This document shows, piece after piece, positions 25,389 to 50,809 of a DNA stretch of 64,000 nucleotides. The stretch is from Polytrichum commune (taxonomy: Eukaryota > Streptophyta > Polytrichopsida > Polytrichales > Polytrichaceae). The number at the start of each line of letters is the position of its first letter. The stretch's first letter is position 1. The notes below the pieces were generated by a model that was not told the DNA's origin, did not search any database, and saw only the letters and a list, made by a program, of their open reading frames with translations. Where the stretch lies: positions 3,162,001 through 3,226,000 of the forward strand of contig OX485804.1 in the NCBI GenBank assembly GCA_950295325.1, read 5' to 3'. A program made the position numbers and the translations under genes.

Positions 25389-25629
25389 AATAATATTTAT
25401 TTATTTATTTATTTGTGCTACATATTTATGATATTTATAGTATTTATTTAGTTGTATTTATTGGTTTAGGGGTACAGGTTGGTTATTTTCTATTTTTCTT
25501 TTGTGTAAAATAATTGATCCGGCGTGTTGTATGGCGATGGTGTTGATTTCTTTAAATGTGTGTTTAATGGTAGTTTTCGGTATTTTGAGTTTTGTTTCAA
25601 GGAGTTCCATTGAAGGGGTGTGCGTTGTT

Positions 25630-26126
25630 CCTCTAACTCATGTTGTGATGACTATGAGTGGGTCTGCTTTCCAACCTAAGTCTATGATGTTATTTATTAG
25701 GGGTTGGTATTTTTGGATTTTGTTTTCAATTGTTTCTTGTGGAAATCTGTCATTACAATATGTAAATTCAATGAATTGTATAGTGAGGTTGTCTGATGGG
25801 TTTGATGGTGGGTCGCTATTGTATGGGTGGCCTTTTATACATAGAATATCTGGTTTGAATCTGGCATTGCATTGGCATCGTTGTTGTCCACATGAACATG
25901 TTACTAGCCATGGGGGTACAGTGTTTTCTTGGGGGTTGTTATTGTATGTTCTTGTGTTCATGAGGGTATAACATCTTGATTCTTGTGATGATAAGATTAA
26001 TTTTCTTAGTTCCCATACTGCTTTGTTATGTCTTTTAACTCTTATGGCATGGATATGGTGATGGTTGCATTTCAGCAGTACGTGAAGCCAAGTGTCCGCA
26101 TCTGTGGAGTTACATATAGAGCATGT
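25630..26126 (-). CDS. LINE ORF2 tail: CCHC knuckle and PD...E nuclease-like domain
   Basis: Just after RNase H, and in a frame shifted from it, the minus strand reads CSICNSTDADTWLHVLLKC, which is CX2CX9HX4C. There follows a basic helix (RVKRHNKAVWELRKL), a Cys cluster (CSCGQQRCQC) and then NARFKPDILCIKG, a spacer and IQFIEFTYCNDRF. A CCHC knuckle followed by PD and a later acidic residue on a beta-strand is the layout of the restriction-like endonuclease of R2-type LINEs. The PD lies near 25,855 and the Glu near 25,768. The spacing between PD and Glu (about 24 residues) is longer than in R2, so catalytic status is inferred, not shown. A divergent zinc-binding tail is the alternative. Confidence 0.55.
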
Positions 26127-26960
26127 TATTGAGGGGAATCTTTCTCTACGTAAAATAGTTGTTTCCTTGCATTACCCATGTATTGGCCGGTGCGGAATTT
26201 TAGTATGTTGGTTTTTTGGGCATCTGTGATCATGGGGTTATGCCAAAAATTATTGGATAGTTCATTGTCGATGTTTGGGTTATTGGTCCATTTGTTGATG
26301 TTAGGGAATAGGTTTGTCATGATTGCAATATTTTTTTCTTGGTCGTGTTTGGTGAGATATGTTTGTAGGCATCTAACAGGACCTTTATCTGGTCGTTTTA
26401 TAGGACCCACCCAGATGTCTTTTTGGAAGTAGAAAGGTGTGGTGTGTGCATGCTCGTATGGTTTTGAAGCAATGGAGTATCTTTTTCTAGCTCCTATTTT
26501 TGCGAGTTTGTCTGCTTGTTCATTTCCTTCAATGTTAATATGTGCTTTGACTTTGTAGAATGTAGTGGGTTGAGTTCTTGTTTTTAATATATCTACCATG
26601 CTTGTTAGTATTGTTTTGTCAGCACGATTGTTATATGTGCTAGGATGTTTGATGTGTGTGTTTAGATTGTATAGGCAGTTGAGGCAATCTATGAATATGT
26701 ATGCGGGTTCGTTAGGGTATTTTTTAGATATTAGTTTGAGTGTTTTATGGATGGCCATTAATTCTGCTCAGAAGCATGTTTATAATCCTGGTAGTCTTTT
26801 CGAGATTTGCATGTCTATTTTGGTTGAGTTGTATATTCCGTATCCGGCTTTCTCTTTTTTCCAGTGTCCATTAGTTTTTTTGGTGGGGGGTATGAAGGAA
26901 CCATCAGTATAGTAGCTGTGTTGTGGTTTGAATTTGGGTGTAGTATTTGTTGTAAAGTTT
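26126..26960 (-). CDS. LINE ORF2: RNase H domain
   Basis: The cellular-type RNase H fold is recognisable: YYTDGSFIPP (first Asp) near 26,918, AEMMAIHKTL-like sequence (Glu) near 26,765, IFIDCLNCLYNL (second Asp) near 26,690 and KAHINIEGNEQADKLAK (last Asp) near 26,500. It would degrade the RNA strand during target-primed synthesis, a function only some LINE clades carry. The frame is broken by stops around 26,770-26,783, between the first and second motifs, so the copy is inactive. Confidence 0.85.
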
Positions 26961-28930
26961 GGGAGTGTTGGTATGTTAAGTGTGGTCTGGTAGATTGCAG
27001 GCGGGTATATGAGTTTGTTCCATTTTTTGCATTTATTGACTGGCGTGTTGGGTGGGGTGGGTAAGGCGTGGTGGATGTAGTATTGTGGGATTTGTAGGTT
27101 TTCGAGTATTATTTTGAATGTGTTTATTTGGTGAGGAGTGCCAATGTTGTGATTTTTATGGTGTATACATAGTATTCGTATTGCAAGTGGTTCTGTTTTA
27201 GTTATTTGTCTTTCTTGGGGGATTGTTGGTTCTTCATATGTAATTGTGTCTGCAGCAAATTGGGTGATGACGTGTGTGTCTGGGAAGGGTCCAGTATAAG
27301 GGGAAGGGTCATGGTACCAGTTTTTGTTTGGTATTACTACTATAGTGATGGTATTTGGGTCATTTTTGGCTCCTAGTCTTGCCCAATGGATTGCTTGTTG
27401 GATTGCTTCTTCGTTGTCTGGATGCGCGTAGCCTGTACCCTCCCATTTATATTGGAAGGCGGTTCCTAATGCTCCAAAGACTTTGTCTCTTACGTGAAGC
27501 GAGTAGAATTTTGAGATTTTTGTTGAGCACGATACTGGCGAGGAAAAATATGAGTGTGAGATATCAAAGACAGTGATCAGAGAATCTATTATGTTTGTTG
27601 GTAGGGTGTGTAGTGTTGTTTTTGTTGAGGTATTTTTGGGAATTTTTCTTTTGTACCTTTGATAAAGCCATACTACTTCTTTTTCGAATGTTTGTGTTTG
27701 TGGTGCTAGCCCATGTGTGTTATGTCTTGCTTTATTGTATTGTTGCCATAGCCATTTTAGTCTGGTTGTTGATATGGAGGTAAGGTGTTTACCAATTTCT
27801 TCATATATGTGGGTTATCTCATTAACTATGTGTATAGTATCTTTGTTGGTAAGGATATCTTTTTCTGGGTTACATTCGGTAATAAGTATTTGTGTGAGTG
27901 GGATATTTGTGGATGGAGGGATGAATCTTGTATCTCTGTTTTGTTCAGAAGTGAAGTGTGTGTTAAGAATTTTCTTATAATGTTTGTGTTGTAGTATCGT
28001 GTAGTATTCTGTTAGTAGTGTAATGTTATGTGTGATAACTGTTGGGTGGTTAAGGGGGAAGAGTTCCATTTGTGGCATCCATTTATTATATATATTATTA
28101 TTTTGGAGGGTCCATTGGCACAAATATGTGTTAAATTTCTTTGTTATTTTGTATTTGTCTTTTATGGTTTTTGTTTTGTGGTCTAGTATTTTGTTGATGG
28201 CAAATCTTATGGGGTTGTTTATGACATTGAGGGGTGGGTTTGGGTGAAGCTGTTGTTGTGGGATTAGGGGTTGGGATGGGTTATTCGGTGTTCTTGGAAT
28301 TAGGTCTTGATTGTTTGATATGTATCTTGGTTTAAGGGTACGGGCGGGTAGGTGTCTCGTACAAGAGTTTGGGCAGTTTGGTGTACAACTTGGGTAGCAA
28401 AATAGTTGTTCAGCTATTTGGAGTGCCGTTTTTTCTAGTTTGGATGGTGTTTTATGATAAATTTTGAAGTCGTCTGACGTCATAAGGTTTGTTCCGTTAG
28501 GGAGGGTGATGTGTTGTATTTTGTATATGTTGTGAATTAATAATTTATGTAGGAGTTTGAGTGATAGATCGGGGTTGAGGTGTGGGAGTTCGTTAATAGC
28601 TTGTGTACGCCATTCTTGTTCCAGTTCTGTCATATGTAGTTGGAAATTTTCTTTTGTGCTTTTAAGGTGAATTCCTCCTTCCTTTTTTAGAAGAAATAGT
28701 ATGCGTATGGTTGGTGATCTAATGCAATCATGTTGTGTTATTCTTGGGATGTTTTCTGCGCCGCCATATTTGGCTAGTATGTGGTGTATGAGTCCTTTGT
28801 ATATTATACCTAGTTTACCTTGGTCGCTAAGTGCATTTCTTAGTTGTTCGCCAATGCATCGTAAGTATGCATTTTTAGTGAAAAGGCCTCAAGGCCAAAG
28901 AGTTCGTGGGGTAGTTGGGTTATTACGTTT
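26780..28930 (-). CDS. LINE ORF2: region between reverse transcriptase and RNase H
   Basis: This is a long minus-strand stretch of about 620 codons from MTELEQEWRTQ, extending upstream to the CACTA insertion point at 28,930. There VITQLPHELFGLEAFSLK continues the thumb and connection part of the reverse transcriptase. A lone-base loss in an A run near 28,875 shifts the frame. The region carries C-x3-C-x2-C-x3-C-like clusters (CYPSCTPNCPNSC), a possible zinc site, then Asn/Pro/Thr-rich linkers before the RNase H. No other domain was recognised. Confidence 0.8.
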
Positions 28931-28960
28931 CACTATAAGAAAATCTTGTTTTTTGTGACG

Positions 28961-29480
28961 TCAAAAAAAACGGAAGTGCGCGTTCACTTTGACATGGAGG
29001 TTCTTATCTTGGACGTCACCTAAAATCCGTCATGTCAGACAGGAGAAAAACGCGTCGTGGACATGCGAAAACATGGGGAATTTAAGCACGTTTTTATGTG
29101 ACGTCACATAAAACATGGTGTTCCATAGTGTCCACGTGAAGACACGTGGACGCCACCGGCATGCCACGCAAGCATGTTTTTTGTGGGCAGTGCCACATCG
29201 GCACGTTTTTTTTTCCGCCCCCTCGGTGACGTGGATGACCTCGTGGACCCTCTTGAGATGACGTGGAATGCGATTAAAAACTGATGTGGCATTCGTTGTT
29301 GCTGACGTGGACATTGCATTACGTGGCGATGTGTGCTGTTACCGACGTCCTCTGCGACACGAAAATGTCACATGAGACATTTTCCTCGACGTATGCATGT
29401 ATTTTTTGGGTGTTTTCGGGGTGATTTTTAGTTTTCTTGGACATCATTTTTGACAGTGGGATGTTATGTGTGACATCAAA
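28961..29480. repeat. Left subterminal repeat zone of the CACTA
   Basis: Within about 500 bp occur many short direct and inverted copies of a GACGTC / GACGTGG / GACATC core, for example near 28,968, 29,012, 29,101, 29,230, 29,300, 29,344, 29,390 and 29,440. A matching but shorter zone lies at about 39,060-39,260. These are likely transposase-accessory binding sites. The mix of CG and CA/TG versions fits decay of methylated cytosines. Confidence 0.7.
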
Positions 29481-30056
29481 TGGGGCATTACAAATTATGG
29501 GGATGTCCTCTGGCCAAAACCACAGCTTATTTGGGAGTGATGATGCCGTTTTCAAGCTTAGCCCGCCTTGACGTGGTTGATTGCCTCAAATTCTCAAACA
29601 CATTACTGACATCAAGTTGTTTGGCTATTAGCAGGACCAAATGTCAGATGCACGTCACTTATGCCATCTACGAGAATAAACACCGACGTCAACTGTTTCA
29701 CCAGACAGTCGGAACAGACACAAAGAACGCGTGGAACAAATGTACACCAATGCTTTCCAATTCCGTAAATGCAACGTTTTCATTGATACAACATATTGCA
29801 ACCAAGAGGCTGCATTTACACATCAATCGCTAGTTGCCCAAAAACTTAAACATTGTCCATGATCGAGGCATCCATGTCTATAGTCGCGAGTCTACACCTC
29901 CACGACTAAGTGGATAATTCATGAGCACTCGAATGGAGAGCCGCGTCGTTATTGAGAACGTCCACTCATTTCTTCTTTTGTGTCTGTGCCTTCGTACTAG
30001 TCCCCACCTGCCCCATTCCACCACCATTCACAAAACCGTATGAATTACATTAGTGG

Positions 30057-33000
30057 TCATCCGAACATGAAATGGACTAACACGAACGACGTGACTATAT
30101 TCGAGTGCTCCACATTCCTCCTGCAATCATGCAAGCAATGTAGGCATGCAAACACTAGTTCCCTCACCTTCGCAAGATTTTGGGGAGGTTTAGGCAAACC
30201 AACCGCTTTTGGTGCACCGAGTTTGGCCATTGAGGATTTCGCTTGTGCGCTTCTACCCGCACGGCGGGGTCGGCCACCTGACTCCTCCGGTACGGGCACC
30301 TCATCCTGTAATAGCATTCCGCATTAGTACTCAGAGGTTTCAAATTATGGTCGTTCTGTTCTGCGATAATTCAAACTGTCAAGGCAAACGTCCAGCCTAA
30401 TGTACATGTTGACATCCTCAATGGCACCACGAAGAACATGCCAGACAAATACATGAAGGTATAATTTTTTAAACGACGATGAGAGGGTTTCCAGTATGTC
30501 TAATATGGGTGGGTGTTACTTGATGTTACCTGATCCAGAGATGCAATCTCTTCAGGCACGTCCGCATTGCCGGATATCTCAGGGTGTCCTTCCTCGACGT
30601 CTTCCATAGCTTGCACTGGCACTTCCTCGTTGGTGGGTTCTACAGGGTCATCAATTACAGGTGTCTGTGTCGTTTTTTTCGGCACTTCGAGAATGTCCTC
30701 AATTATAGACGCAATAATGGTTTCAGAGCTGGGAGGCACTGCTTCTACGTCTGTGACTGCATCAGTCGCAACATCCTCGGAGACGTCGCTCGGGACAGGA
30801 ATCGCGGACGCCACACGCATGTCCACACCGCCCACCGCGCTGATAATTGGGGTGGGAGCTTGTTTCTGTGCCACCATCACCAGATCCTCCGTCGTTGACG
30901 TCAATGCCGAAATATCGAGCATCTTCGCAGACGATGAAGGCTCCGTCATGCTATCAATGTTAGTCGGATGTTTCTGACTCTGATTCTTAAGAATCATTTG
31001 CATCATGTCCTCCATGCGCTTGTTTGAGGCTGCCACATTCTCTCCAAGGCGTGTGACGCTGCCCTCCAAATCCGTCACTCGAGTGCGCATCAACTCCATT
31101 TCCGAGCCATGATCGGGACGTGCTCGGCGTTTTTCCTCCTGTATGCGTTGGTACTCTTTGGCAACCTCGGCGTCAACCTCCGCATCGTACGGTGCCCTGT
31201 TCTTCAACATCGCCTGCATGACACATTAAAGTCATTACGGATGAAAGGGGACGTCGACAACAATGCGTTCCAACAGGTGTAGGTCCCGTGACGCCTTTGG
31301 AAGTGCCATGATTAACATCGAACATCAACTCAAACAACTAGAGTTACATTGCCGGCTCATCGGACGTCTAAGTAAACGTGTTGGATGACATCTGTTGTCG
31401 ACATTGACATTGTAGGGGATAAGGGCCATCACAGATTTATAAAGAGAATTGCAACATTGTCAACCATGTCAACATAGACATAGTGACACTCTTACCAAAC
31501 GGGAGACGACCTCCCTTTCAATAGCTTTCAGTTGAGCTGTGGTCGATCCTTTCCCTTTTGAAATTGAGCGCATATGCTGAGACTTCAAATGCGCAGCCTC
31601 GGTGGCGCGCATACCTACAAGTGTTTTCCAATGCTCTGCATCCACATCGGCTGGTTTACCCGCATTGTTGTCTATGAGCTGGTTTAACCTCCACCGGGTG
31701 TTGATGAGTACCATTGTTATAATAGGCCGCATCCACTTCTCGCACACTTTGTCACAATGCCCGCACATCTCCCAGTCTGCGTGCCGGACACACACGTCAA
31801 TGCCATCACATTCACTTTACAAACGACCAACACTGGGTGCCCACACTACACCCACGTTAGAAAGGGTACAAACCAGTATGTCACCACAAGAGAGAAAATT
31901 GATATCATCGACGTCCCTATGGACGTCGATAGCGATTGTCGAGCGTTTCAGTACACATGTCCACAAAAACGCACGGACGTCCTGTTCGGCATCCACTCAC
32001 AGATTGTCAGCATGACACTCTGTGCTAAATACATGTCCACCCTGACGTCAGCGAGAATGTCATGCCTGCCTACATAGACATACACCCTGTTGCTCATGTC
32101 CAGAATGATGTTTGGTTGCACTTAAAATGTCAGATTCGGGTTTCACATCGCAAATTAACGCGACACATGCATGCCAAAAAATTGATGTGCAAACCTTATT
32201 TGTGTATAGGCGTTTGAATAATCGCTTCCTCTCGTGCCGTGGCTGGCCTTCCCATCCCGTCGTGGGATCCAGGTCCTTTGCATACTTCTTGATGTCGGCG
32301 CACAGGACAGCCTTCATGGCGCCAAAAGGCTGCCCTTGCGCATCCAGCTCCACACGTTTCTTCAAGGCAGTGCTCCCCCCTCCCTTACGTGTTGGTAGTG
32401 GATGTGATGTTTCAATCCCATCACTATTCTCCTGATCGCCGTCTGATTCCGTGCCCGAGTTGGTTGCGTATCCTCGGCTACAACAACCACATTCCACAAT
32501 CAAGGAATCTCCAGGTGCACACATATGCGACTACCCACTGAGCTTGAGCAGCCACATTGCTGAAATGGGTTCTTAAAGACTGCAGATTTGTTTTCTTGGT
32601 TTTCCAGCTGCAATTTCAAGACTTTGGGGGCATGTTATATACTGCTGGAAAGATATTTTCAATACCTTTCCAACGGTATATAACATGCCCCCAAATTCTT
32701 AAAATTTCAGCTGTAAAACCCACAAAATAAATCTGCAGTCTTTTATTGACTGCAGATCAGGGTGGTCAAAAGCTCATGGTCCCATAACCGTTGTCAAAAC
32801 CCCAAGTTGCAGGTATAAAGGAAAAAATTCATGGAGCTCCAGGGAGCTGGAGCGTGGCGTGGTCTGTGTCTGTGCCATTGTCGGAGTTCGGCCGCATAGC
32901 AAAATTTGAACTTGACCGTGACCTAAATTGTGATGCATGCATATGAGATGGAAGATTTACCTGTTTTGGAACTGGGTTGATAGCGATGCTCGATGACTCA

Positions 33001-33257
33001 GTGGGTGTTGTGAAATTTTCACTCCCAAAGAAGTTGAGCAAGCGTGAGCGGCGGCGACGGTGTGCACGTTGGGTTCTTTCAATTGTGTTGGGTTTTTGGG
33101 ATGGCATCATTGCATTCTTCTCTTCGCATTCAAACACCAAAGTGGACAACACTGCAGCAGCCTCGGAGTCATCCGCATCCACCCTTTGCGGATGTTGTGA
33201 TGTGTCTATAAAACGGACAACCCTACCAGGCTTTCGTGCTGAACGCGACACCGCCAT
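30057..33257 (-). CDS. TNPA-like accessory protein of the CACTA (Transposase_24 type)
   Basis: This minus-strand split gene diverges from the transposase. Supported pieces: exon 33257-32961 (MAVSRSARKPGRVV..., donor GTAAAT), coding around 32,465-32,210, around 31,795-31,496 (donor GTAAGA), 31214-30530 (acceptor TGCAG, donor GTAACA) and 30305-30057. The third piece has WKTLVGMRATEAAHLKSQHM, the W...L...K-S-x-x-x layout seen in plant En/Spm Transposase_24 proteins. The fourth begins with a charged coiled coil (RVTDLEGSVTRLGENV) and ends acidic. The last holds GRPRRAGR, an AT-hook-like element. In En/Spm the accessory protein binds subterminal repeats and brings the ends together. Exact joins of the middle exons are not settled, and intron 1 contains a MITE. 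Confidence 0.7.
32576..32742. mobile_element. 167-bp hairpin MITE nested in the CACTA
   Basis: The unit starts AAGACTGCAGATTT and ends with its inverse AAATCTGCAGTCTT, flanked on both sides by TTA (32,573-32,575 and 32,743-32,745). Nearly the whole unit is one inverted repeat: GGGGGCATGTTATA near 32,626 pairs with TATAACATGCCCCC near 32,679. A 3-bp T-A-rich target duplication points to the PIF/Harbinger group, though the termini are not its classic ones. It sits in an intron of the TNPA-like gene. Confidence 0.8.
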
Positions 33258-33975
33258 GCTGCTAAGGGATGTTCAAGCAATGAGCGTACAAAGGTGAAGC
33301 CGCAACACTTAGGGTTTAGAGAATGTCGGCGAGCCTTCTCAGGGTCATCTGGGGCATCCACTGCCTGGAATACCCTCTGGGACACGTGGGAAAAGGTCAG
33401 TTACATTATTTTTTTACTGGCGTCGTAGATACCAGTGTTTTCTTGGACGTCATGTAAGACACCCAATGCGACATGTGCTTAATTCGAACACTGTGCGCTC
33501 CCCATTGTGTGCGGGAATGAAAGATCCAGGTCATCGACGTGACCATTGTGGTTTCGATGTTCTGCAGCAGTCAAATCCCTCACGTGGGTGTGTATGGAAC
33601 ACACTGCCGTGTAGTGTGTGACCTTCATTTTGGTGTCCAGGAAGATGTCACAATTGACGCCGACAGATCAACAGCAATGTCCCCATAGACATTCTCAGTG
33701 ACATCCACCCTGGAAGAGACACTCCGCATAGTGTCAACGAATGGTGTCCAGGAAGATGTCACAATTGACGCCGACAGATCAACAGCAATGTCCCCATGGA
33801 CATTCTCAGTGACATCCACCCTGGAAGAGACACTCCGCATAGTGTCAACGAATGGTGTCCTCTGTTTATATCAATGCTCATGCGCAACACGACCACGCGG
33901 AGACCTTGCGGAAGCACTGCAGGGTGTGTAACATCGGCCCAGTGAGGTAACATCTTCCAATTCGGGACACGCAAC
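33258..33975. promoter_or_regulatory. Divergent intergenic promoter region of the CACTA
   Basis: About 720 bp separate the starts of the TNPA-like gene (minus) and TNP2 (plus). It contains 2.07 copies of a 111-bp tandem repeat from 33,631 to 33,860, and more GACATC/GATGTC-type motifs like those in the subterminal zones. This suggests that the accessory protein could bind here and autoregulate, as TNPA does in En/Spm. Confidence 0.55.
33631..33860 (+). repeat. 111-bp tandem repeat, two copies plus a stub
   Basis: TGGTGTCCAG begins at 33,631 and 33,742, and TGGTGTCC again at 33,853. The copies are almost identical (one A/G difference in the CCCCAT(A/G)GAC segment), so the duplication is recent. 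Each contains AGATGTCAC, CAGTGACATCC and GCATAGTGTC. Confidence 0.95.
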
Positions 33976-36900
33976 ATGGGTTCGGCTGTGCGTCGTGGTG
34001 CAACCATTCGTTTGACGGACGATGGACGCACACTTCGTCACATGCCAATAGGGGATTTGATATTTCACACGGAGCTCCACGTGGCGACAGAGAACAATGT
34101 GCACACATTTAGATGTCCTTGCAAAGACTGCAAGGGTAGACGCAGAAAAACCATACAAGTTATACGGCAACACAACGCGGCAGTTGGCCGTGATCCATTT
34201 CTAACCAAGTCTTTACTAGGCGATGACCCCGTCGATGGATACCCACCGTCTGGAATGTGGGTGGAGGACGTCTGTTGGTACAACGACGTTGTAGAAGACA
34301 TCCCTTCGAACACATTACCTGAACCCGTGGACGCCGACAACGGGGCACTTCCCCCACCCCTCCTGGATGAATTCCATGAAGTTGAACGTCAGGTGCTGGA
34401 GGCACTGGGCAGAGGGGATGCACTCCACGAAGAGGCCGTAGCTGAAGAACGTTTGCATATGGAGAACGAGGAAGACGGCGACATCGAAGATGAATTGGAT
34501 GGTTTGTATACGGAAGCCACGACTCTAGTGTACCCGGGTTCAAAAATGAGTGTTGTGTCCGCCACGATCATCATAATGAACATGTGCTCGGTGTTCCGTG
34601 TGAGCAATACATTTACCGATGAGTTGTTCCGATTTTTGTCTGGAGACTTGTTACCAATGCCCAACAAGTTGCCCAAAACTCATTATGCGGCTCGGAAGAG
34701 CATCCGTCGACTTGGATTGACCTACAACAATATCCATGCATGTCCCAATGGTTGTATTCCATATGACGAATAATATGCAAATCATGATTTATGTCCCAAG
34801 TGCATGGCGCGACGATGGCTGGATGGCAGCAACAACATTCCCGTAAGAGTAATCCGTCACTTTCCCCTATTTCCTAGGTTGAAACGGATGTGGCGCTTGT
34901 CTGAGATAGCGCGTCTATTGACAGGTCATACCAAACACGTCAGCAATGATGACATTATGTGTTCTGTGGTTGACAGCCCTGCATGGAAGCACATCAACAA
35001 TGACGTCGCGTTTGGCAACTTTGAGCTTGACGATAGGAACATGAGACTGGCTCTCGCTTTGGACGGAGTGAATCCTTTTAAACTAAACAACATCAACTGG
35101 TCGACGTGGCCGGTATTGATTTTGAATTACAATTTCGAGCCATGGTTGGTGACCAAAAAGTTTTTTATCTCGTTGTGTATATTGATTTCCGGGAAGAAGT
35201 CGCCGTCCTCTTCAAACATTGATGTGTTTATACGACCGCTTTTGAAGGAGCTACAAGAGCTTTGGCATGGTGTTGAGGCTTTAGATTTCTCCCAACCACA
35301 AGGGAGTCGCATTTTCACTTTGCGTGCCATACTTATGTGGACCATTTCCGATTTTCCCGCTTTCGGCCTCATTTCTGGTCTTACTTGTAAGGGCTACAAG
35401 GGGTGCCCTTGTTGTGGACCAAACACCGATGCGAGTATGGCAAAAACCGGAGACATGCTTCCAAATCGGAGCATTAGGGGCACCAAAATTGTTTACGGCG
35501 GCATTCGTCGTTATTTACCCCGTCACCACCCGTATCGCCGGAATAGGAGATTCAATGGGGAGGAAGAGGAACGTCCTAGGCCAAAACCGATGTCGGGGGA
35601 TGATATCATTCGATACGCAGTTTGGCGCGATTCATACCTACAGATGGGCGGGAGAGAGAACGGACCCAACGATCCTGTGCATGTCACAGGCGTCAAAAGA
35701 CTTAGTGCGTTGTTCGAGCTGGAATACTGGCAGGTGATTCCCGTATAACAATTAATGTTTGCACATCTTATTCATAGATGTTGAAGTGGACATCGCGACA
35801 TCCGTCTCAGTCACGTAGTTTGTAATGATGTCCACCAAGACATCTGGTCTGACGCTTCAGGTCATGATGATTACCAGCTTTGCTCATACGGATAGACGAG
35901 GCATGCATGTGTCCATGAAAGTGCTGGCAATGTGTCTGAAATTGCCCATGTGTCTTGTGCAGCACCTGCTAGAGCGTCACATCTTCGATGTTATGCATTG
36001 TGAGAAGAATTTGTGCGAGAACTTGTTGAAGACATTGTTTGGAATGAATGATAGTCCTGGAAGCAGAGTCGACGCGGAGGACCTGGGAATACGCGAAGAG
36101 ATATGGTTGCAACCCCCACGGCGGCCACAGGATGGGTACTATATGCCGCACGCTCCCTATGTTTTTAGGCCACATGAACGCGCGGAGTTTGTTGGAATCG
36201 TCTCCAATATTCGCACCCCCACAAACTACGTGGGTAGCATTCACAAGCGCCTAGCGGATGGGAAATTGCAGTACATGAAAACGCACGACTACCATGTTCT
36301 CATGCAACAGGCAAGTCAAGAAGGACACCCTCGGGGATGTCAATGTTGTAATACAATGTATCAATGTGTCATAGGAGTATAGGCACACACCGCATGATGT
36401 CTACTGAGACCTCATTCCAAACATGGTTGACGCGTCAACATCCTGGGGGACGTTATCCTCAAACTGTTCTCGCACTCCATGTTCTTCATGATGCTCCTAG
36501 ATGTTCTGTCTGATGTCCAGGGGGGCGCGACACAATCGTTCTCTGACTTTCTAAATACATGTCTTCCAGATTCTTCCAGTGGCTATACGCAACCTATTGG
36601 ATGAAAGCGTGCGCGTAGCTATTATCAAACTGAGTAGAGTGTTTCAGAGACTATGCGCCAAGGAGGTGAAGAGAGGCGACAAGGAGGGCACAATGTTGGA
36701 TGTGGTGATGGCGATGTGCGTCATGGAGAAGGAGTTCCCTCCCACATTTATGAATGTCATGACGCATATTCCCGTCCATTTGGTGGAGCAGTTGTACACG
36801 TGCGGTAGTGCATTGTCGATGGATGTATCCCATAGAACGGTACATGAAAACGTTGAAAGATTACGTTCGAACATTTGCACATCCGGAGGGTAGCATAGCG

Positions 36901-39260: not shown

Positions 39261-39316
39261 AGACATCACTCGTTTCCCCAAAACGACCCCAAAAATGCGG
39301 GTTTCTTATAGTGTTT

Positions 39317-41274: not shown

Positions 41275-41439
41275 TGGTCGGTTGTTAAGTGCTCATTCAT
41301 CAAAATTGTGGTGAGTTCGTTTATTTGAAGGGAGTTTTCTTCGTTAAATAGTATTTTGAGTTTTTCAATGTTGTCTTGTGGGATGGGTTTTAGAATCCTT
41401 GGTGGTTTGTTTATTTTAGGTTATATGGGGCGGGCTAGG

Positions 41440-42220
41440 AGTGTGTTGGGTGGTATTTGTAGTATGACTGGTGAGTGATCTGAGTTCATATTATAGTCGT
41501 GGTTTGTAGTTGAGGTATATAGGGTGTTATTGGGCGTTTGGATATAGTACCCATCGATTAAGCTTGTTTGAGTGTAGTTTTATCCACCTTGTCTGGTAAA
41601 TGTGCTATTTGTTGGGATGTAAGTTAGATTTAGAGTGTCTGTGAATGTGCGCCATTCTATGTCTTCTGTTTGTGGGGGTGTTATGTTGAATTCGTTTTGT
41701 CTCCCTATAAGGGCTATGTCTCTGTTAGAGTCTCCGCATAGTATGTGGGAGTGGTTTGGATGTGCCATGATTTGCTGAGTTATTTGTTGTTGGATTGTTG
41801 GGATGTATTGGATGTCTTTTAAGTGAGATGGCATATACATGTGTAGGATTAGCCATTGTTGTAGTGGTGTGTTTTGTATTTGTATAATTTGTAAATATGG
41901 TGAGATCTCAGCTGGGATAGGTATTTTGGTGATGTTCCCTGGATATGCATATTTGTTATTTATTAGAGTGAGGAGTCCTCCTCTTGCTGGGGTATATGGC
42001 ATTCTTTGTTGTATACATCTTGTTAGAGCATGTGTGTTGTTAAAAATTAGCTTGTATTCTGGAAATAGGTTTTGTATATATTTTGTTGATTTTGTTGCAG
42101 TTAATTTGGTTTCTTGTATGGTGATGATTGCCGGGTTTGTTGTGGTATTTACGATTATGTTGTGTATGTTTGGTAGAGCTGTGTTTAGAGATGAGGCATT
42201 CCATGTGATGATGTAAGTGT
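41440..42220 (-). CDS. LINE ORF2: AP-type (APE) endonuclease
   Basis: Exonuclease-endonuclease-phosphatase motifs appear in order on the minus strand: IITWNASSLNTALPN near 42,205 (Asn), IITIQETKLTA near 42,115 (Glu), RGGLLTLINNKYAYPG near 41,975, WLILHMYMPSH near 41,850, ILCGDSNRDIALIGRQNE near 41,725 (Asp; the usual GDFNRD has Ser here) and MNSDHSPVILQIP near 41,480 (SDH). This domain nicks genomic DNA to prime reverse transcription. Small frame breaks occur at both ends of the clean stretch 42,002-41,580. Confidence 0.9.
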
Positions 42221-42611
42221 TGAGGCTGGTTGTTTATATCTCTTGACTTTGCGGGAGTGGTGTATTGGTTTGTGGGGGTGGGTGTGAGTATTCTGGTAAG
42301 GGTTCGTAGCATTTGAAAGATTCTATTAGTAAATTTTCGGGTAAAAAAAGGAATTTGTTTGTTAGTATTTGGAGGTTTGGTGGATTATTGTTTTGTTTTA
42401 TAAAATCATATAGGTGTTTGTGAATGGTGTTAGGTGGGTTGATTAGGCTTTGGTTGGTGGTTATGAATTCTGTGTATGGGTGTTTTTTTTGGATGTGTCT
42501 CTCTGGGGGGTTTTGAAGAAGTGCTATTTTTTCAAGGAGTGTTGTTGTCCAGTCTGGGTTTGATATGTGTGTTAGTTGGTGATTGTGTGAACCCTTTGAA
42601 TGGTCCACCAC
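42221..42611 (-). CDS. LINE ORF2: segment upstream of the endonuclease
   Basis: A minus-strand open stretch reads DHSKGSHNHQLTHISNPDWT and continues through FLPENLLIESFKCYEPLPEY to a stop just before the endonuclease start. Composition (Asn, Pro, His, Thr) is that of the LINE. It links the 2A-containing N-terminus, on the far side of the 2.8-kb insertion, to the APE domain. No domain was recognised. Confidence 0.65.
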
Positions 42612-42774
42612 TCTGCGGGATCACTTTTAGTTAGAATGTTAGCATTAAAAGTTAGAATTGATAGGGAATTTAGGGAAAATTAGTTCATTTAGTATTTAGC
42701 CTAGAAGAAGGAAGGTCAAAATGAAACTAAGTAGTGCTAGAAGATAGCAAAGTAGAAAAAATGTGCTAGCTAGT

Positions 42775-42885
42775 AAAAACAACTAGCTAAGCAAATATTA
42801 GTAGATGCTAGTTATTAAGCAAATATTAGTAGATGCTAGTTATTAAGCAAATGTTAGTAGATGCTAGCTAAGCAAGTGTTAGTTT
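42775..42885 (+). repeat. Short tandem repeat inside the insertion
   Basis: Three to four units of about 28-30 bp contain AGCAAAT(A/G)TTAGTAGATGCT and TAGTTATTA. They lie within the 2.8-kb insertion. Confidence 0.8.
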
Positions 42886-43639
42886 ATTAGTTAGTGTGAG
42901 GCACACAAGACTATTGGAGGTGTTTTACATAAGAAGATAAAATCGGCGTGAAGAATTTTGAAGAAAAAAAGAAAGAGAGCAAGGGGGATACTTGCCCACT
43001 TGCCCCCTTGCCAACTCGATGGCGGAAAAATTAGAAAGATTTCTAAAGGTTTTTTGTCGGAGCCACCTCGGCGAGAGGATGGCAACCTCAACCGGGAAAA
43101 CCCCCGAGCTAAAATTTCGGGAAAGGGTTTGAAAAATGGATCCGGTGGAGGAGGGGTCCAACCCTTTTGTGAGAGGGTTTAAAAACCCCTCCTTCCACCT
43201 TGTAGCTCTCTCTCTCTTTCTCTAGTTTTTGGGCGAAGCCCTGCTTCAATGTAGTTAGGAAAAAATCCTTTAGCATGTATTCTCAATGGTCTAAAAGAAA
43301 GGCTTGAGAACCTCCTCTACTCTCTCTCTCCTAGTTAGGTTGTGTGTTTATTAACACACCAACAAAATTATTCCTTCTTTTGTAGAGGTAGGTTGGATGG
43401 TAGAGTTTTGAGTAGAGGCATTATAGACCTCATCTGCCAATGCCCTGAAGGCTTAGTTTAAAAGCTAGAACAAGATACTTATCATTTTTCTCTTAGAGAG
43501 ATTTCATATAGCTATCCATAGCCGTTTCCCATTTGTGATTTGGTTGAGATGACAATTAGTTATGGATTTTCAAAGATGGAGTAGAAAAACTGGGTGGTCT
43601 TGTGGGTAGCGGCTGCTGGATCAGACCTGCGAGCCCAAT

Positions 43640-44060
43640 AGGAATTTTAATTCCAAGAAATTATATTTTTCCCAAGTAGAACTTTTGTGTAGCTTTCCAA
43701 AATGGCTTAGAACATTTGATTTGAGCATGATTTGAATTAGATATGAATTGTGCAAGATGGGACACATAGTTTGAGAACTTTTGGTTGACTGCTGCATTAC
43801 AGAGGACCTGCTGGGTTCACTTCGGCTTACCTTTCTAATCACATATTTTTATCAAATACATCTTTTTAATATCTCTCCAGGGTCATATAGAACGTTTGAT
43901 TTGACTAAGATTTGAATTAGATATGAATGGTTGAAGGCGAGATACATAGTTTAAGCCTTCTTGATTGACTGCTGTGTTACAAGGAGTCCGCTGAATTTCT
44001 ATTAGCTTAACCTGCTGATGTCATAATTTTTTCTAGTTAGAGCTTGTTCATAGCTTTCCA
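43640..44060 (+). repeat. Diverged direct repeats, about 185-bp period
   Basis: The phrase GATTTGAATTAGATATGAAT recurs near 43,729 and 43,909, followed in both copies by ACATAGTTT and TTGACTGCTG. A weaker third copy with TAGCTTTCCAA follows near 44,050. This is internal structure of the 2.8-kb insertion. Confidence 0.7.
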
Positions 44061-45449
44061 ATGGTATAAGGAAAGCCTAGATCCAAGTAGTAAGGAATGT
44101 GCTATGAATTTTTGAAGTTAGAAGGTAGATAGGTGGGTTGGAAGGGTCGGTTGAATCGACCTCACACTTCCAACCCTCATAACTTTTGCATTTCTTATCC
44201 GATTAGAGTGATTTTTAGATCATTGGAAAGATAATTTGGTGCACTAAGTATAAATATTATGCTTAGGATTAAATTACAGGGCAGAATAACAGTTTATATT
44301 TTAATTGTTAACTAAGGTACGCTTACTACCAAACTAGTTACAAAGAAGGAGGCAAGGTCGACGCTCGGAAAGTGGAGCAAGGAAGGAGGTAGCGGCTTGG
44401 CCTACATCAAGCCCAAATCAACCGAGGAAAATTGAGGTAAATTAACTAACCTTAAGCCTTCCATTTAGGATTGGAGGGAGCACGGCTAAGGTACGCATCT
44501 ATAAACCCATTCACCTATCTCGTAAGGTCAAGTGGCTTGACCACTTGACCGCCAAGGGAGTACCCAATTCCATTGTTTTCGGGGCCCTTGGTATGTTTTG
44601 TGGTAGTAGCTTCATTTATTAGCAAGTTTCGTGTGTGGTAAGTCGGATTAATCACCGACACGACCACTCTGAATGTTGTTGGTGGAAAGGTGGGGTTAAT
44701 GACCCGCGAATCCACTATTATGTTGTTGGCCCCATAGATTGGGAGTAATGGCCCCAATTTATGAAGATTGCGCAACAGGTTGAACCTACAGGTCGCCCGT
44801 CACCCTGGTCCCATTGAGTTGCATTTCGTGGTCTATCCAGTGTAAACACATTTAACAATCAAAACATACCAAATAAATCGTAAACCCTTGTTGGCAAGAG
44901 ACCCGAGGTAAGGGGTGATGCCTAATATGTTAATGTAGTAAGTTAGGACGTGCAAACAAAAGTAAGTAATTAAGAAGGAATTTGTGTGAAGGGTGGGACT
45001 TAGGCCAAGTTCCCCCGCTTAGAAAACTAAATAGAACTAAATAAAGAAATAGGAAGAATTGAATGGTCCATCAAATTGTCGTTATTCCGTTCGTTGAGTT
45101 AGGGTGGTATGAGTCACACCCGGTTGGGTGTATCAGAACCATCCCAATTCACAAATTAGGATTGCCTTGGTTTCAAGGCTGGTGCGTCTGCGCGTAGAAT
45201 AGGTTGTAGGTTAAGGTTAGAACTAGATATGAAATTGGTTAGTGGAGTTTAAAGCCACACTAGTAAAAAACTAAGGCCTAACCTCCGGAGGTACTACGAC
45301 GCATATTTAATCTCCCTTAAAAATCTAACTACTCACGTTATACACCTATCATCCGGGTTCGGCTTGGGCGCCTGCAAATGCAGGCCACCTTCACCGAAGG
45401 GCTTGTGTGATACTTTTAGGCTCCCTCGAAAGGGGGTGGCCCAAAAGTA

Positions 45450-45776
45450 CCACAGATTGCATGTTTCTAGCAATGGGCTTATCGTGATGATGAGTGCATA
45501 TAGTATTCGTTGTGGTGGGTGATGTTGGTTTTCTTGTATGTATCTTGCTAGGTGTGGGTGTTCTATAGATGTGGCCATATGGTTTGGATGTGTTGCTTTT
45601 AGACATGCGGCAAATTGTTTTGCTAAATGTTGGTATTCTGGGTGTAGTTTTATTGTGCAGGGTATAAAATATATTTTATTCCTACTTCTGTGTGATGGTG
45701 GATGCGTTTTAAGTATGTTTGGCATTGGTCCCGGGTTGGTTTCGATGTCTCCACAGAGGAGTATTAGGAGTTTCAT
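45450..45776 (-). CDS. LINE ORF2: N-terminal segment after the 2A peptide
   Basis: After the 2A motif the frame continues MPNILKTHPPSHRSRNKIYF and on to ILYALIITISPLLETCNLW, 109 residues in all, until the 2.8-kb insertion begins. The segment has no recognised domain. In composition and position it belongs to the N-terminus of the LINE polyprotein, ahead of the endonuclease. Confidence 0.7.
45726..45776 (-). other. 2A-like ribosome-skipping peptide at the LINE ORF2 start
   Basis: The minus strand encodes MKLLILLCGDIETNPGP, and the next codon is ATG. The 2A consensus is D(V/I)ExNPG|P preceded by a hydrophobic, Leu-rich helix. All conserved positions are present: D at residue 10, E at 12 and NPGP at 14-17. 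In 2A peptides the ribosome fails to join the last Gly-Pro bond, so upstream and downstream proteins are released separately. 2A sequences at LINE ORF2 N-termini are known from trypanosomes, sea urchins and other animals. Function here is inferred. Confidence 0.75.
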
Positions 45777-45899
45777 GAAGTGGTTGTTTAAGTAGTTTGG
45801 TATGTTGGCGGTGTTGTGTTTGTTAGTATGGTGTTTTTGTCTATTGGTTTTTTTGAGGAATTTAGTGGATTTGTGACTAGTGTAGTTTTGGTGTTGTGG

Positions 45900-47811
45900 G
45901 TTTTTGTGTTTTTGATGGGTTTTGGATGGTGTGTATGTTATTGTGGTTTTAGTGTTTTTATGGGGTGGTATAATTTTGTATGTTTATTGTGGCGATGCAT
46001 TTGGTGTGGAATTTGCTTGTGTATTGTTGGGTCCTTAATGGCGTGTTGTTATTGCTTTTATTAGTGTTGTTAGCTAGTCTAGAGTTTTTGTGTGTTGGTC
46101 TAGAGCGTGTATGTTTGTTGTTTGTGTGAGGTGTAGTGAACGCATGTTTTTTTTGGCCTGGGGTGGTAGTACTATGCCATTTGGGTTTTGTTAGGTGTGT
46201 TGCTAGTGTGTTTGGTATAGGTCTTGGGTTGGCTACGGATTTACTGCCTAAGTGAAAGGGGTACAGTTGGGTTAGATATTTTTTTTTTAGCATTTTTTGT
46301 TTATGTGAGTTTTGATATTTAGATTGGCTTTGTAATTGTGTTGGTTTATTGATTTGTTTGGTGGTTTTGATTTTGGTGTTATGCGAGCTGTTTTTGTTTG
46401 TTTTGTGGTATTCTATATATTTAGGTTTTTGTGTATTGATTTTCTTATGTTGTGTTTTTGTATTATGTCTTTTTTTTGGTGTGTTGTACGATTTGTGTAA
46501 TGTTTTGAGTTGTTGGTAAGTTTGTGTTGTGTTATTCTTTATTTTACTTGTATCTTTTTCTTTTTTCTTTTTTCTTTTTTTGGCGAGGCCGGTAGGCCGA
46601 TCCTGGTTATGTTTGTTAGTATGGTCTTTTAGATATTGTGACTTGTTTTTGTGGTGTGTTTTGCCATTGCTTTTTTTGGTTTGTGGTGTTGTTATTATTT
46701 TGGGTTTTCTAAGGTAGATTGTGGTCTTTGTATCCCTTAGTAGATGTGTTATTGTTGTTGTTTATTTATTTATTTATTGTCGTGGTGCTATGTGATTCAT
46801 TTAGTCTGTTGGGTAGTTTGTATGGGTTTATTAGTTTGTATTTGTGTGAGTGGTAGGGTTTGTTTTTGGTTTTTTGGCTGTTAGTTTTTTTGGTAGTTTG
46901 GATCTTTTTGTTGTTATGAGGGATGCTTATCTCGGGGGTTTTATTGGGTTTTGTTATGTGTTTGGGTTGTTGAGTTTGTTTTGTGTTGCTTATTATTATG
47001 TAATTGTATTTGTTTAATGTGATGAGTGGTTGGGGATTTTTTCTTCTTTTTGTTTCTTTTATTTTTTCTTATTATTATTATTATTATTTTGGCAGGGTGG
47101 TTAGGCTTAACTTGCTTTAGTGTGGTAATGTTCATGTTTAGCATTTGGGTATCAGTTTTGTAGTATGTTTTTCCATTCTTCTTTTTGGTGTGTGGGTTTA
47201 TTGTTAATTTGGTTTTGGAGTATATTATGTTGTATGTGGCTGTTAGTAGATGTAAGTTTTTTTATTGCTATTATGTTGTGTAGCCATTTCGGTTTGTTGT
47301 GTGATTGGGTTGGGTTTCTTATTGTCTTATCTATCTGTGGGTGGAGTGATTTGTTTTTGTTTTGTAAATATTTTGGTTTGTTGGTAGCTTTATTGTTGTT
47401 GTGGGGGGTGCTTAGAGTGGGGGTTACTTTGTTTTTGGCTTTTGTTACTTGTGTAAGTTGTTTGATTGCTTTGTATGTGATTTGTGTAGGTGTGTGTTTG
47501 TTTTTTGTTTTTGTTGGGTTTTGGTAGTTTGGGTTTGGGGGATTTGTGAGGGTGGTTTGTTTTGTTGTTGTTGTTTTTCTTTTCTCTCTTCTTCTTCTCT
47601 TTTTCTTTTTTTTGGCGAGGCCGGTAGGCCGAGGCCGTTTTGGTTTATTTTTGTTTTTATTTGGTAGTTGTGTTATTGTTTTATAGTGTTGTTTGACACT
47701 TTTTATTTGAGTAGGTGGATTTGTTTTTCTTTTGGGGTTTTTCGTATATATTAGAGTATCTATAGATACTAGTAGGTATGATGATGATTTATTATTATTA
47801 TTAGTTTTCAC
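45900..47811 (-). other. LINE spacer with three Lys/Asn-rich modules
   Basis: Between ORF1 and the 2A peptide, the minus strand shows three related modules about 510-520 bp apart. Each starts with an A-rich Lys/Arg run next to RPTGLAKK-like sequence (coding from 47,632, about 47,108 as a worn copy, and 46,600). Translation gives very basic, Asn/Thr/Lys/His-rich peptides, plausible RNA-binding filler, but frames are interrupted. It could be a degenerate extra ORF or an untranslated spacer. TGGCGAGGCCGGTAGGCCGA is shared exactly at 46,581 and 47,613. Confidence 0.55.
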
Positions 47812-47831
47812 CGTGGCGTTGTTTGACCGAG

Positions 47832-49466
47832 CTAGTTTGTCGTGTCCATATTACCTTCAATGGCCGAGGAGCTAGCCATCTCTAGTGCTTGCATGGTTGT
47901 GGCTAGTTGTCTTTTGAGGAGGGTCATTTGTGTGTAAAGGGTAGATGTGGATTTTTCCACAGCTTTTTCCGCAATTTGTTGTTGCTCACTTCGTAATTCT
48001 TCTTTCATTGTGGTAATTTCCTCTCTTATTCCTACTATCTCATTCATGAGATCTTTGTGTAGGTTGACTTTTGCGGGAATATTCTCAAGTGTCTCAATGG
48101 TGCTTGCTAGGGCAGTGTTCACATCACTAAACCCTAGCCTAGTGAGTTCACTTGCACTAGGTGCATTAGCCCCGTCAAGGCTCCTAGGGTGGGGGGTAAA
48201 CTCGACGTATTTACCGAGTAGTTTTAACGTTTTTTTTCCAAATTTCTTGTAGACCATAGCATGTAGGCATTGAATATTGCATGAGCCTAGGTGCTTACCG
48301 TTTTTTTCGTCTCGCTTGAAAAAGAAGTTGAGCACATTCTTAGGTCCCATATGCTCTTCGATGCTTTTCTCGATTTCTACTACGCTTTTGGCTTTGTTGA
48401 GATTTTTGGCGATGAGTATGAGGGCGTTCTTCCTTGCAATGTCGTCCTTGGATGCGAGTGATCGGTCTGCGAGCTTTCCATCCAAGATTTCGTTGTTGTA
48501 GGTTAGTTGTTGTTCTTTCATCCGCTGTGCTTGTTCCGGGGAAGAGGCTACGACCCATGCGAAAAGGTTTTCCTTCTTTTTTTGGATATTGGTGATCTCA
48601 TATTCCGTGCCCCTATGGAATCTCTCTTCTATTATTTTTTCAAACATTTCGTACTACTCCTTGGATGCTAGCCCCTCGCTTGTGATTTTAACCGACAAAA
48701 GGTTATTCAAAGCTAGGGAGTCATATGTTTTGCATATTTTCCCCCTTTTGAATTTATCTTCGTCTAGTTTGAGAATGAAGGGGCGGAGTCCTTGAAGGAG
48801 CCCCACCCCATCAATCTCGGGTGTTTTTAGGTGAAGTTTAATTACCCCACTCCACTTTGTGGACTTGTGGTAACACATGAGGGCGATAGGCTCTCCTATT
48901 ATATCCCCAAGTTCTATATTCATCTCCTTGAGCCTAGATTCTACTAAAGGCATGATCGAATCCTTTTCCCACTCGATTTCACCCATCTCGAAAAATATTG
49001 CTATTTGATAGTCAAATGAGAAGCCAAACTTATCAACCTCCACATCCGATGGGATTTGTGTGAGGTTGAAGTGTTGGCCACTCTTACCATCCTCTCTTGA
49101 GTTTGGCCATTCCTCTTGAATGACAAAAGGAAAGGAGGGGATGGTGGATTGGCACTCTCTAGCCTCTTTTTCCCTCATCCCATTTTTTACTAGTGTAGCG
49201 ATTGGGACATGGTTATCCTTTGGAAGGCCTTTGCCTCTATTTGTCCAATTCATGGCTTGAAACCCGAGCCAAAAGGGGGGACGTGTTGATCCGGTGTTGG
49301 GTTTACTTTTAGCCTTCTTTTGGGTTAGGGTAGCTTGAGAAGAAGAGGAGGTGCGCTTTTGGGTAACAAACATATCTGTATCGGGGTCATTCTCTAAGGC
49401 TAGTAGTTTTTCTTTATATCTTTGTGAGGAGTTTGAATTCGTGGCGCGTTGAGACATTCTGAGCAT
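47832..49466 (-). CDS. LINE ORF1 protein, with one in-frame amber codon
   Basis: Two minus-strand stretches, 49,466-48,654 (270 aa) and 48,647-47,832 (271 aa), are in the same frame and separated by one TAG at 48,656-48,654, followed by TAC GAA and then the ATG at 48,647. The first part has a Ser/Thr/Lys-rich N-terminus, then PPFWLGFQAMNWTNRGKG and an alpha/beta region (IGEPIALMCYHKSTKWSGVI, LRPFILKLDEDKFKRG). The second part has KKENLFAWVVASSPEQ and ends in a coiled coil (IREEITTMKEELRSEQQQIA, LLKRQLATTMQALEM). A fold plus C-terminal coiled coil suits an ORF1 nucleic-acid chaperone that forms oligomers. Composition is less biased than in ORF2. No named family was recognised. The TAG is either decay (CAG to TAG) or a read-through site. 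Confidence 0.65.
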
Positions 49467-49519
49467 AGCAACAATTTGTGTTAAGATTCTAGTGGTTTTT
49501 AATATTGTGGAATTTCTTC

Positions 49520-50620
49520 TTACATTCCCATGATGATTTTTTTTCCCCTTCCTACCTTAGTTTGTGGGGTTAGGTGGGGGGTGAAGAGTGGGAGTTGTAT
49601 TTTATGACTAGGGATGCCTATGGTATACGTGAGAGGAGAGATGTGTTGGTACCCGAATCTATGGGTTTTTAAGTATTTATTGAGATGGGTGATAGCTTTA
49701 GTGGTTTTGTAGTAAGAGGTTTTTTGGTTTTTATTGTGTGTCCAAGTATTTATTTGAGAGGATATGTATTGTGCATACATATTAAGTGGTTGCATATAGG
49801 TAGGGTTTATATAACTTTTATTGTGATTGTATTGGGGACCGGGTTTTTTTATGAGGTTTTTATATGATCTATTCCATTTAACTCTTTTATGAGTGGGCAT
49901 GCATTTGTGTATATAAGCTTTATTCATTTTTATGTGTGAGTCAATGTTGTGTTTTTGTAAGGTAAGTGTTTGATTGTTTAGACTAGAAGTGTTTTTTGTA
50001 AGTTTGAGTGAGATGTTTTGAAGTAGATGATTTCCCCTTATGGTCTCTAGGTCTTCTCCTCCCCACAACTTAATTTGTGGGGCCGAGTGGAGCATGACCG
50101 TTGAGAAGGGAAGTTTAGTGTTGTGCTGATTTAACTCTAGGGTGTTATGAATTATTGCTACGGTGCTAGTGGTCCATATTTTGGGACAGCTAAGAACTAT
50201 ATTTTTCATTTTGTTATGGGGAAAGGCGTTGGTATTGATTTTAATTTCAAAGCAATGTTTTTTAACTTTGCTAATGTTTGTGTGTCTAGCATCTAACCTG
50301 GATTCGGCTACTGAGATGACTAAAGAAGTTGTGTGATAAGTAGTGCAGACATAAGCTGGGCCTGGGCCCTCAAGCAATTGTGAGGTGTTACATTGCACTA
50401 TGCTTACAAAATAAGCTTTGGTGTGAAGGGTGATATATCTAGGTGTAGAATGTAGTTTGGTAAAACCTGGCCGGGGGGTGACTGTGACGATGGGTAGGAG
50501 CCGTTGGTTTGCAGGGTCGCGGTTTGAGGTTGCAGCTCGGCTGCTGCTCCCTCGCAATCCCTCTTCCCGCCGTCTCGCTTTTGATGCTCCCCTCCTCGCT
50601 CCGGCTGCTCTCCGTCGCAC
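49520..50620 (-). CDS. Unrecognised open frame in the LINE 5' region (366 codons)
   Basis: A long minus-strand frame has an Arg/Ala-rich beginning (GC-rich DNA near 50,500-50,700 with CAGCTGC-type repeats) and an Asn/Lys/His/Thr-rich remainder, for example RVKWNRSYKNLIKKPGPQYN. No domain was recognised. Composition matches the LINE. It may be untranslated leader that happens to be open, or an extra ORF. Confidence 0.3.
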   Translation of the reverse strand: MRRRAAGARRGASKARRREEGLRGSSSRAATSNRDPANQRLLPIVTVTPRPGFTKLHSTPRYITLHTKAYFVSIVQCNTSQLLEGPGPAYVCTTYHTTSLVISVAESRLDARHTNISKVKKHCFEIKINTNAFPHNKMKNIVLSCPKIWTTSTVAIIHNTLELNQHNTKLPFSTVMLHSAPQIKLWGGEDLETIRGNHLLQNISLKLTKNTSSLNNQTLTLQKHNIDSHIKMNKAYIHKCMPTHKRVKWNRSYKNLIKKPGPQYNHNKSYINPTYMQPLNMYAQYISSQINTWTHNKNQKTSYYKTTKAITHLNKYLKTHRFGYQHISPLTYTIGIPSHKIQLPLFTPHLTPQTKVGRGKKIIMGM

Positions 50621-50809
50621 TCCAGCTGCTCACTGTCTCACTCCAGCTGCTCGCACTCCCGCTCTCTCGTTGCTCGTTGGTCTTGCTCCTCGAAAGTATG
50701 TTGTTTCTACTTCTGAGTCTAGATTCTACTGCTACAATTTCTAACACTGTCCTATTTCTCTTTCTACCTGCTCTCGAAGCTATGCTAATCTGCTGCAGGT
50801 TTGAGAGGG

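Follow-up and report, generated by a model that had tools for sequence, protein, structure and literature searches.

The stretch of DNA analyzed here (the window) comprises 64,000 nucleotides from the moss Polytrichum commune (NCBI GenBank assembly GCA_950295325.1, contig OX485804.1, positions 3,162,001 to 3,226,000 of the forward strand). It contains a whole but dead copy of a long interspersed nuclear element (LINE), which lies on the minus strand with its 5′ end at the higher coordinate and is closed at its 3′ end by a (TATC)n tail at about position 24938 (Table 1). From 5′ to 3′, the copy carries a first open reading frame (ORF1) ending in ...NMDTTN-stop, an inter-ORF linker with a conserved hairpin, and a second reading frame (ORF2) with a 2A motif, an apurinic/apyrimidinic endonuclease (APE), a reverse transcriptase (RT), a PCIF1-like domain, an RNase H, and a tail with a CCHC finger and a restriction-like endonuclease (RLE). 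Its damage consists of a CACTA transposon, a second insert, and point damage. A preliminary description of this DNA had seen the 2A, the APE motifs, a YADD reverse transcriptase, RNase H, CX2CX9HX4C, and PD...E in one minus-strand element broken by two insertions, and all of these were located where it had placed them. The span it gave, 25389-50700, does hold the pieces but misses the 3′ end. The PCIF1-like domain, the hairpins, and the stop-free linker of related copies were not mentioned in it.

Table 1. Features of the LINE copy in the window; c1, c2, c3, and c10 are copies in the same genome (see text), and AF2 denotes AlphaFold2
Feature	Position	Strand	Basis
Whole LINE copy, dead	24938..50128	-	blastn of c10 vs window matches 50128 down to 24940; 5′ boundary approximate
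ORF1, stop-broken, weak RRM-like similarity	47835..49457	-	tblastn with ORF1 of c10 and c3; alignment of five relatives
Inter-ORF linker, decayed in window	45750..47831	-	stop counts by frame
Conserved hairpin copy 1, close variant	47614..47635	-	sequence match and folding
Conserved hairpin copy 2, close variant	46582..46603	-	sequence match and folding
2A core DIETNPGP, head of ORF2 protein, then MPNIL	45726..45749	-	motif; GDIETNPGP in window
Second insertion, ends approximate, ~2.9 kb	42584..45459	.	blastn of c10 vs window
APE endonuclease, approximate	41470..42205	-	window below Pfam cut-off; motifs in ORF 41580-42233
Reverse transcriptase core with YADD	39493..40356	-	Pfam RVT_1 1.4e-27; RT of c2
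CACTA transposon inside LINE, TTT duplication	28931..39313	.	ends CACTATAAGAAA / TTTCTTATAGTG
PCIF1-like methyltransferase domain, NPPF -> HPDN	27329..27721	-	Pfam PF12237 37.1 bits, cut-off 31.1; alignment
RNase H, approximate	26489..26915	-	Pfam 1.8e-6 in window; c1 and c2 matches
CCHC finger and restriction-like endonuclease, shortened by stop	25641..26171	-	alignment; AF2 model of c2 tail and Foldseek

The genome examined comprises 408 Mb in 64 contigs. It contains four matches to the LEAFY domain. Among PDB sequences, the N-terminal piece of the best of these matches only Ginkgo LFY, and its C-terminal piece only LFY-type chains, with 4bhk, a Physcomitrium entry, at the top. A contig of 146,561 bases has rbcL. 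LEAFY is not known outside streptophytes, and the host is accordingly a streptophyte and most probably a land plant. With the RT as query, 136 places were scored at 74–100% identity, the window copy included; this count, drawn from 1,802 first-look candidates, is a lower bound. Some of the 135 matches besides the window lie within open frames reaching 2,924 codons. Ten natural copies (c1 to c10), most of them chosen for their long open frames, were read as present in the genome. In these copies ORF1 is followed by a single ORF2 frame with the order 2A, APE, RT, PCIF1-like domain, RNase H, CCHC finger, and RLE. The family is, to judge from its copies, abundant and recently active, the latter because the linkers of c1 and c6, and those of c3, c5, and the near copy L112, are at least 99% identical. 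Moreover, between c1 and c3 the ratio of nonsynonymous to synonymous substitution rates (dN/dS) is 0.06–0.14 in each of nine ORF2 segments, including 0.13 for the PCIF1-like domain and 0.08 for the RLE. By this measure the ORF2 segments are under purifying selection, and all parts thus look needed. Of eight 3′ ends found, seven have TATC-type repeats and that of c9 has CTT repeats. At c5, about 10 bp of the target are duplicated, as judged by eye. Since the flanks vary among copies, insertion does not occur at one fixed site.

ORF1 has no Pfam match above cut-off, and the top PDB match of an ORF1 profile, nucleolin, is weak (E 0.017). The ORF2 proteins of c1 (L009) and c3 (L013) differ by a dN of 0.049; their ORF1 proteins are merely 27% identical. 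Because ORF2 is nearly the same in these copies yet ORF1 is so different, this suggests that ORF1 modules may be exchanged between families.

The 2A core in the window, DIETNPGP, agrees with D(V/I)ExNPGP, of which position 3 is variable (E, K, H, or Q) among copies. The motif is present in nine of the ten long copies and in the window, c8 having NLGP. Twenty high-ranked and 20 low-ranked RT copies were then sampled from the 136, some of them near duplicates of one another (L060, L061, and L063, for example). NPGP is intact in 34 of the 37 sites recovered from these 40, and the rest read NLGP (two) or NPGS (one). In one subfamily further in-frame 2As occur within the linker: three in c9, two in L062 with a stop between them, and two in L068. 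In comparisons of c1, c3, and c8, dN/dS next to the 2A drops from 0.4–1.8 to about 0.1–0.3 over the last ~30 codons, and the upstream context for 2A activity has about that length. A 2A from sea urchin is described as functional in N. benthamiana (PMC4981915). The moss 2A seems to free the main ORF2 protein by ribosome skipping.

Counted from the stop of ORF1 up to the 2A, the linker measures 1651 nt in c1, 1646 nt in c2, 809 nt in c3, and 2684 nt in c8. In all four it contains no stop in the ORF2 frame, compared to 19–59 in the other frames and 16–44 expected from shuffles. The linker of c9, followed over 831 nt from its hairpin, has none compared to 21 and 11 in the other frames. Base composition was considered as the cause of the open linkers and rejected, since dinucleotide shuffles expect about 10–44 stops and zero was reached by none of 300 in each of c1, c2, c3, c8, and c9. 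About five open linkers are independent, because c3 is nearly duplicated by c4 and c5, and c1 by c6, the linker of which has one stop. The amino acids of the linker are without detectable constraint, dN/dS being alike in the three frames (0.79, 1.0, and 0.73 between c2 and L114; 0.71, 0.62, and 0.88 between c8 and L115), as a disposable bridge to the 2A would look.

The layout around the end of ORF1 is consistent with entry into this frame from ORF1. Eight of nine copies, L115 being the exception, have a frame of at least 232 codons that starts within ORF1, 13–88 nt short of its end, and the step into it is -1 in seven copies and +1 in c1. In the window, a -1 frame of 232 codons starts 16 nt short of the ORF1 end. 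In c2 and c3, ORF1 ends in ACAAAC-stop near the -1 step, and in c1 an AUG lies 5 nt before the ORF1 stop. About 10 nt past the ACAAAC-stop, a second CAAAC has its AAC in the -1 frame (c3, c10, and the window; L013, L027). Ribosome hopping between the two CAAAC sites is conceivable.

In addition, the linker contains a hairpin, GGCTCGGCCTACCGGCCTCGCC or close variants of it, whose frame differs among copies. In the genome, 275 sites match its 20-nt core and none the reversed control. On contig 1, a same-strand RT or PCIF1-like match lies downstream of 48 of the 68 hairpin sites, and of none when the strands are flipped. Four hairpin variants folded alone reach -9.4 to -12.1 kcal/mol, with z of -1.5 to -2.8. 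A role directed at the ribosome would be a guess. The linkers of c3, c8, c10, and the window each hold two hairpin copies, separated by 300 nt to about 1 kb, which would suit growth of the linker by duplication.

It is proposed, with a probability of roughly 0.65, that the window holds a dead copy of a plant LINE family whose ORF2 is reached by recoding through a disposable linker, which the 2A then cuts off. Ribosomes ending ORF1 would pass partly into the ORF2 frame, by a -1 step near the ACAAAC-stop in c2 and c3 and perhaps, in c1, by restarting at the AUG that overlaps the stop. They would then cross the expendable linker, and at the 2A one peptide bond would be skipped, freeing an ORF2 protein (ORF2p) with its own N-terminus, P-MPNIL... 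By target-primed reverse transcription, this protein could copy its own RNA at a nick in the DNA, leaving a short duplication of the target and an end in (TATC)n.

Several observations weigh against this proposal. The choice of copies for long open frames favors open linkers, and among six other linkers only that of L112, a near copy of c3, is open, those of c10, L113, L114, L115, and L116 being broken. Selection bias alone, however, cannot explain stop counts of this size. Since L114 and L115 are broken, the lack of constraint in their linkers may also reflect decay. In c1 and c6 the step goes +1. ACAAAC-stop differs from canonical tandem-slip heptamers, and ORF1 of c8 ends otherwise. In c10 and the window, which belong to one subfamily and are both decayed, the 2A lies in the frame of ORF1 itself (net step 0), which puts it out of reach of the opened -1 frame. 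For this subfamily recoding would be conjectural.

Part of this evidence would also suit an independent start of ORF2, at an internal site or on a separate transcript beginning at an AUG near the 2A, with the linker as an untranslated spacer whose hairpins recruit ribosomes. A candidate AUG (MKNP...) does lie ~27 codons upstream of the 2A in some copies, near the point where dN/dS drops to 0.1–0.3 in c1, c3, and c8. The linker does contain a conserved GC-rich hairpin, and in c10 and the window the frame of the 2A is unjoined to the one that opens at the end of ORF1. An untranslated spacer, however, would have little reason to lack ORF2-frame stops over 0.8-2.7 kb in c1, c2, c3, and c8, or to be stop-free for the 36, 42, and 197 codons that separate the ORF1 stop from the first ATG in c2, c3, and c8. 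Tandem upstream 2As make sense only when translated. The AUG is not kept in the subfamily of the window, for which reason MKNP was rejected as the sole start. Independent initiation is accordingly an improbable, though not negligible, explanation.

The PCIF1-like domain lies between RT and RNase H in ORF2. Pfam PF12237 scores above cut-off at all 150 places scored, of 697 candidates, and PCIF1 chains are the sole PDB matches to E 1, although weak ones (E 0.17 and 0.30). AHP[HP][NT] is found in place of the catalytic NPPF at all 20 of the places sampled (HPDN in the window), so that the catalytic Asn is His in every one and the second Pro is mostly lost; these places were drawn from PF12237 matches, which makes their recovery a matter of construction. 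Methylation appears lost and the fold kept: the domain probably no longer methylates, and a role in binding RNA, such as a capped 5′ end, is more likely. An active methyltransferase with the altered motif HP[HPD][NT], modifying the RNA or DNA of the element, would fit the retention of YAHP in 20 of 20 sampled copies and the dN/dS of 0.13. With the Asn of NPPF replaced throughout and its second Pro mostly gone, such activity is unlikely, somewhat more so than an independent start of ORF2. An AF2 model of the methyltransferase has a mean predicted local distance difference test score (pLDDT) of 39.9, too poor to bear on this reading, and the Foldseek search with it was uninformative.

A fuller version joins these elements: recoding through a linker of variable length, one to three StopGo cuts, and a captured PCIF1 domain, catalytically dead, by which the element's own RNA is held at its capped 5′ end. 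As a whole this combination is tentative, with the odds somewhat against it. A joining of ORF1 to ORF2 in the RNA, with the linker spliced out as an intron or lost in another way, is very improbable: the variable length and apparently free amino acids of the linker would allow this and nothing direct favors it, but the linker has a long stop-free frame holding 2A motifs and is retained in inserted copies, which derive from the element's own RNA.

Of the two endonucleases, the APE matches Pfam above cut-offs in c2 (29.7 and 26.9 bits) and below them in the window (19.8 and 14.3 bits). In c1, to the detriment of a dual-endonuclease assignment, Pfam reports no APE to E 0.5 and motifs alone are visible. 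RNase H is found by Pfam in c2 (2.2e-15) and c1 (1.7e-12). In the tail, no alignment row that reaches them departs from the residues C, C, H, C, R, H, N, P, D, and E. The window has CX2CX9HX4C ... RHN ... PD (near 25850) ... E (near 25768). A sample of 20 copies (19 low-ranked RT copies and c2) yielded 18 tails, and CCHC, RHN, PD, and E are kept in all 18, residues being collected across the frames of one strand and frameshifted copies being counted as recovered.

By these residues and by its modeled fold, the tail would be an R2-type RLE of the PD-(D/E)XK class. The AF2 model of the c2 tail has a mean pLDDT of 49.8, with ten-residue blocks of 50–79 between residues 121 and 190. Its top Foldseek match is R2Tg (E 1.1e-3, probability 0.99), followed mostly by viral PD-(D/E)XK cap-snatching nucleases. 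The assignment is weakened by the R2Tg match itself, which has a template modeling (TM) score of 0.29 (query) and a root mean square deviation of 9.3, by the poor AF2 models, and by searches with phmmer and hmmsearch, in which the tail found no R2 among PDB sequences. The tail of the window has no Pfam match. These low scores and missing matches are what an unrelated zinc-binding domain with a coincidental PD..E would give, but the same CCHC-RHN-PD-E order in every recovered copy, the dN/dS of 0.08, and the first matches to R2Tg and mostly PD-(D/E)XK nucleases make that very hard to credit.

Against PDB, the RT of c2 matches three R2 entries at 1.8e-28 to 1.1e-25, above L1. Two other R2 sequences, which we take to be silkworm-type, match at 5.3e-15 and 9.3e-14, level with L1 at 1.5e-13 to 2.8e-13, and a further entry at 7.7e-14 is presumably also L1. 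L1-type LINEs from the same genome score at most 71 bits by blastp.

Some further observations concern the 3′ region and the inserted transposon. The antisense strand of the 3′ untranslated region has a stretch resembling a tRNA B box (GAATCGAACC or similar on the sense strand) in c3 (L014), c2 (L012), c10 (L028), and the window near 25180; ARAGORN found no tRNA in six 3′ loci. Rfam gave nothing to E 1 in six upstream loci, and in four 3′ loci a single sub-threshold match that was taken as chance. No relatives were confirmed in collections of viral contigs and genome contigs. The CACTA element is 10.4 kb long, with ORFs on the + strand that look transposase-like by eye. It contains an inverted repeat of 83 nt at 32575-32743 (88% complementary, 3-nt spacer) and a tandem duplication of 111 nt at 33631-33852.

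The preliminary description had proposed a streptophyte lineage related to dual-endonuclease LINEs, with added translational tricks. The other copies in the genome bear this out in substance: the 2A and the PD...E are conserved among them, the tail was not placed in an unrelated zinc-binding family, its low-confidence model matching first R2Tg and then mostly PD-(D/E)XK nucleases, and the translational features go further than proposed, with the stop-free linker and tandem 2As. According to a 2026 survey, there is no evidence that plant viruses naturally use StopGo, though StopGo works in plants; almost none was found in them, and the six cases are regarded as suspected host misassignments (PMC12846837). 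Here, a mobile element of the plant itself conserves the StopGo motif in most recovered sites. If the fuller version is true, a plant would be using StopGo naturally, and the ORFs of a LINE would be coupled in a new manner. A linker that has no stops yet is free in its amino acids is a sign of recoding that is unusual and can be tested directly. In addition, with its intact-frame copies the family opens the dual-endonuclease question to experiment in a plant: which strand is cut by each nuclease, and for what reason both are retained. The presence of a PCIF1-like domain in a LINE suggests that retrotransposition and recognition of the cap are connected.

The closest known system by domain content is Dualen/RandI, LINEs of green algae reportedly introduced by Kojima and Fujiwara in 2005; the abstract of that work is said to include a cysteine protease, possibly not a defining feature. 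No protease was among the Pfam matches of the ORF1 and ORF2 pieces scanned in the moss. Dualen/RandI is described as carrying both APE and RLE (PMC3636483, PMC4640811) as well as RNase H (PMC4640811), and Dualen LINEs are reported in relatives of Chlamydomonas (PMC8226300). The moss LINE shares the APE with RLE, the RT, and the RNase H, and is in this sense the streptophyte dual-endonuclease element that had been proposed. Unlike Dualen/RandI of green algae, it has a plant host with LEAFY, a 2A, a PCIF1-like domain, and a stop-free linker. The element is Dualen-like by domain content, the comparison covering domains and, for the RT, PDB and blastp scores against R2 and L1.

R2, to our knowledge, consists of a single ORF and lacks an APE, an RNase H, and a 2A. 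The moss LINE resembles R2 (R2Tg and others) in its top RT matches among solved structures and in its CCHC and RLE tail; it differs from R2 as we know it in having an APE, an RNase H, a 2A, and a separate ORF1, and in flanks that vary between copies. Odon and coworkers reportedly found 2As in APE-type LINEs of sea urchin and others in 2013. LINEs bearing 2A are described from trypanosomes (L1Tc) and sea urchin (PMC4981915). Like these, the moss element has a 2A within a LINE reading frame. Unlike them, cited as they are as APE-type, it has a plant host, an RLE, a 2A that seems to remove a long linker, and tandem 2As in one subfamily. In titles and abstract openings, with most subscription papers outside this scope, nothing pointed to a plant LINE with a 2A or to a LINE with a PCIF1 domain.

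With PCIF1, the cap-adjacent m6Am methyltransferase, the domain shares PF12237 above cut-off. It differs from PCIF1 in lying within a LINE, in having HP[HPD][NT] in place of NPPF, and in showing no separate WW family among the Pfam matches. What is new here is the set of translational and domain features added to a Dualen-like LINE family.

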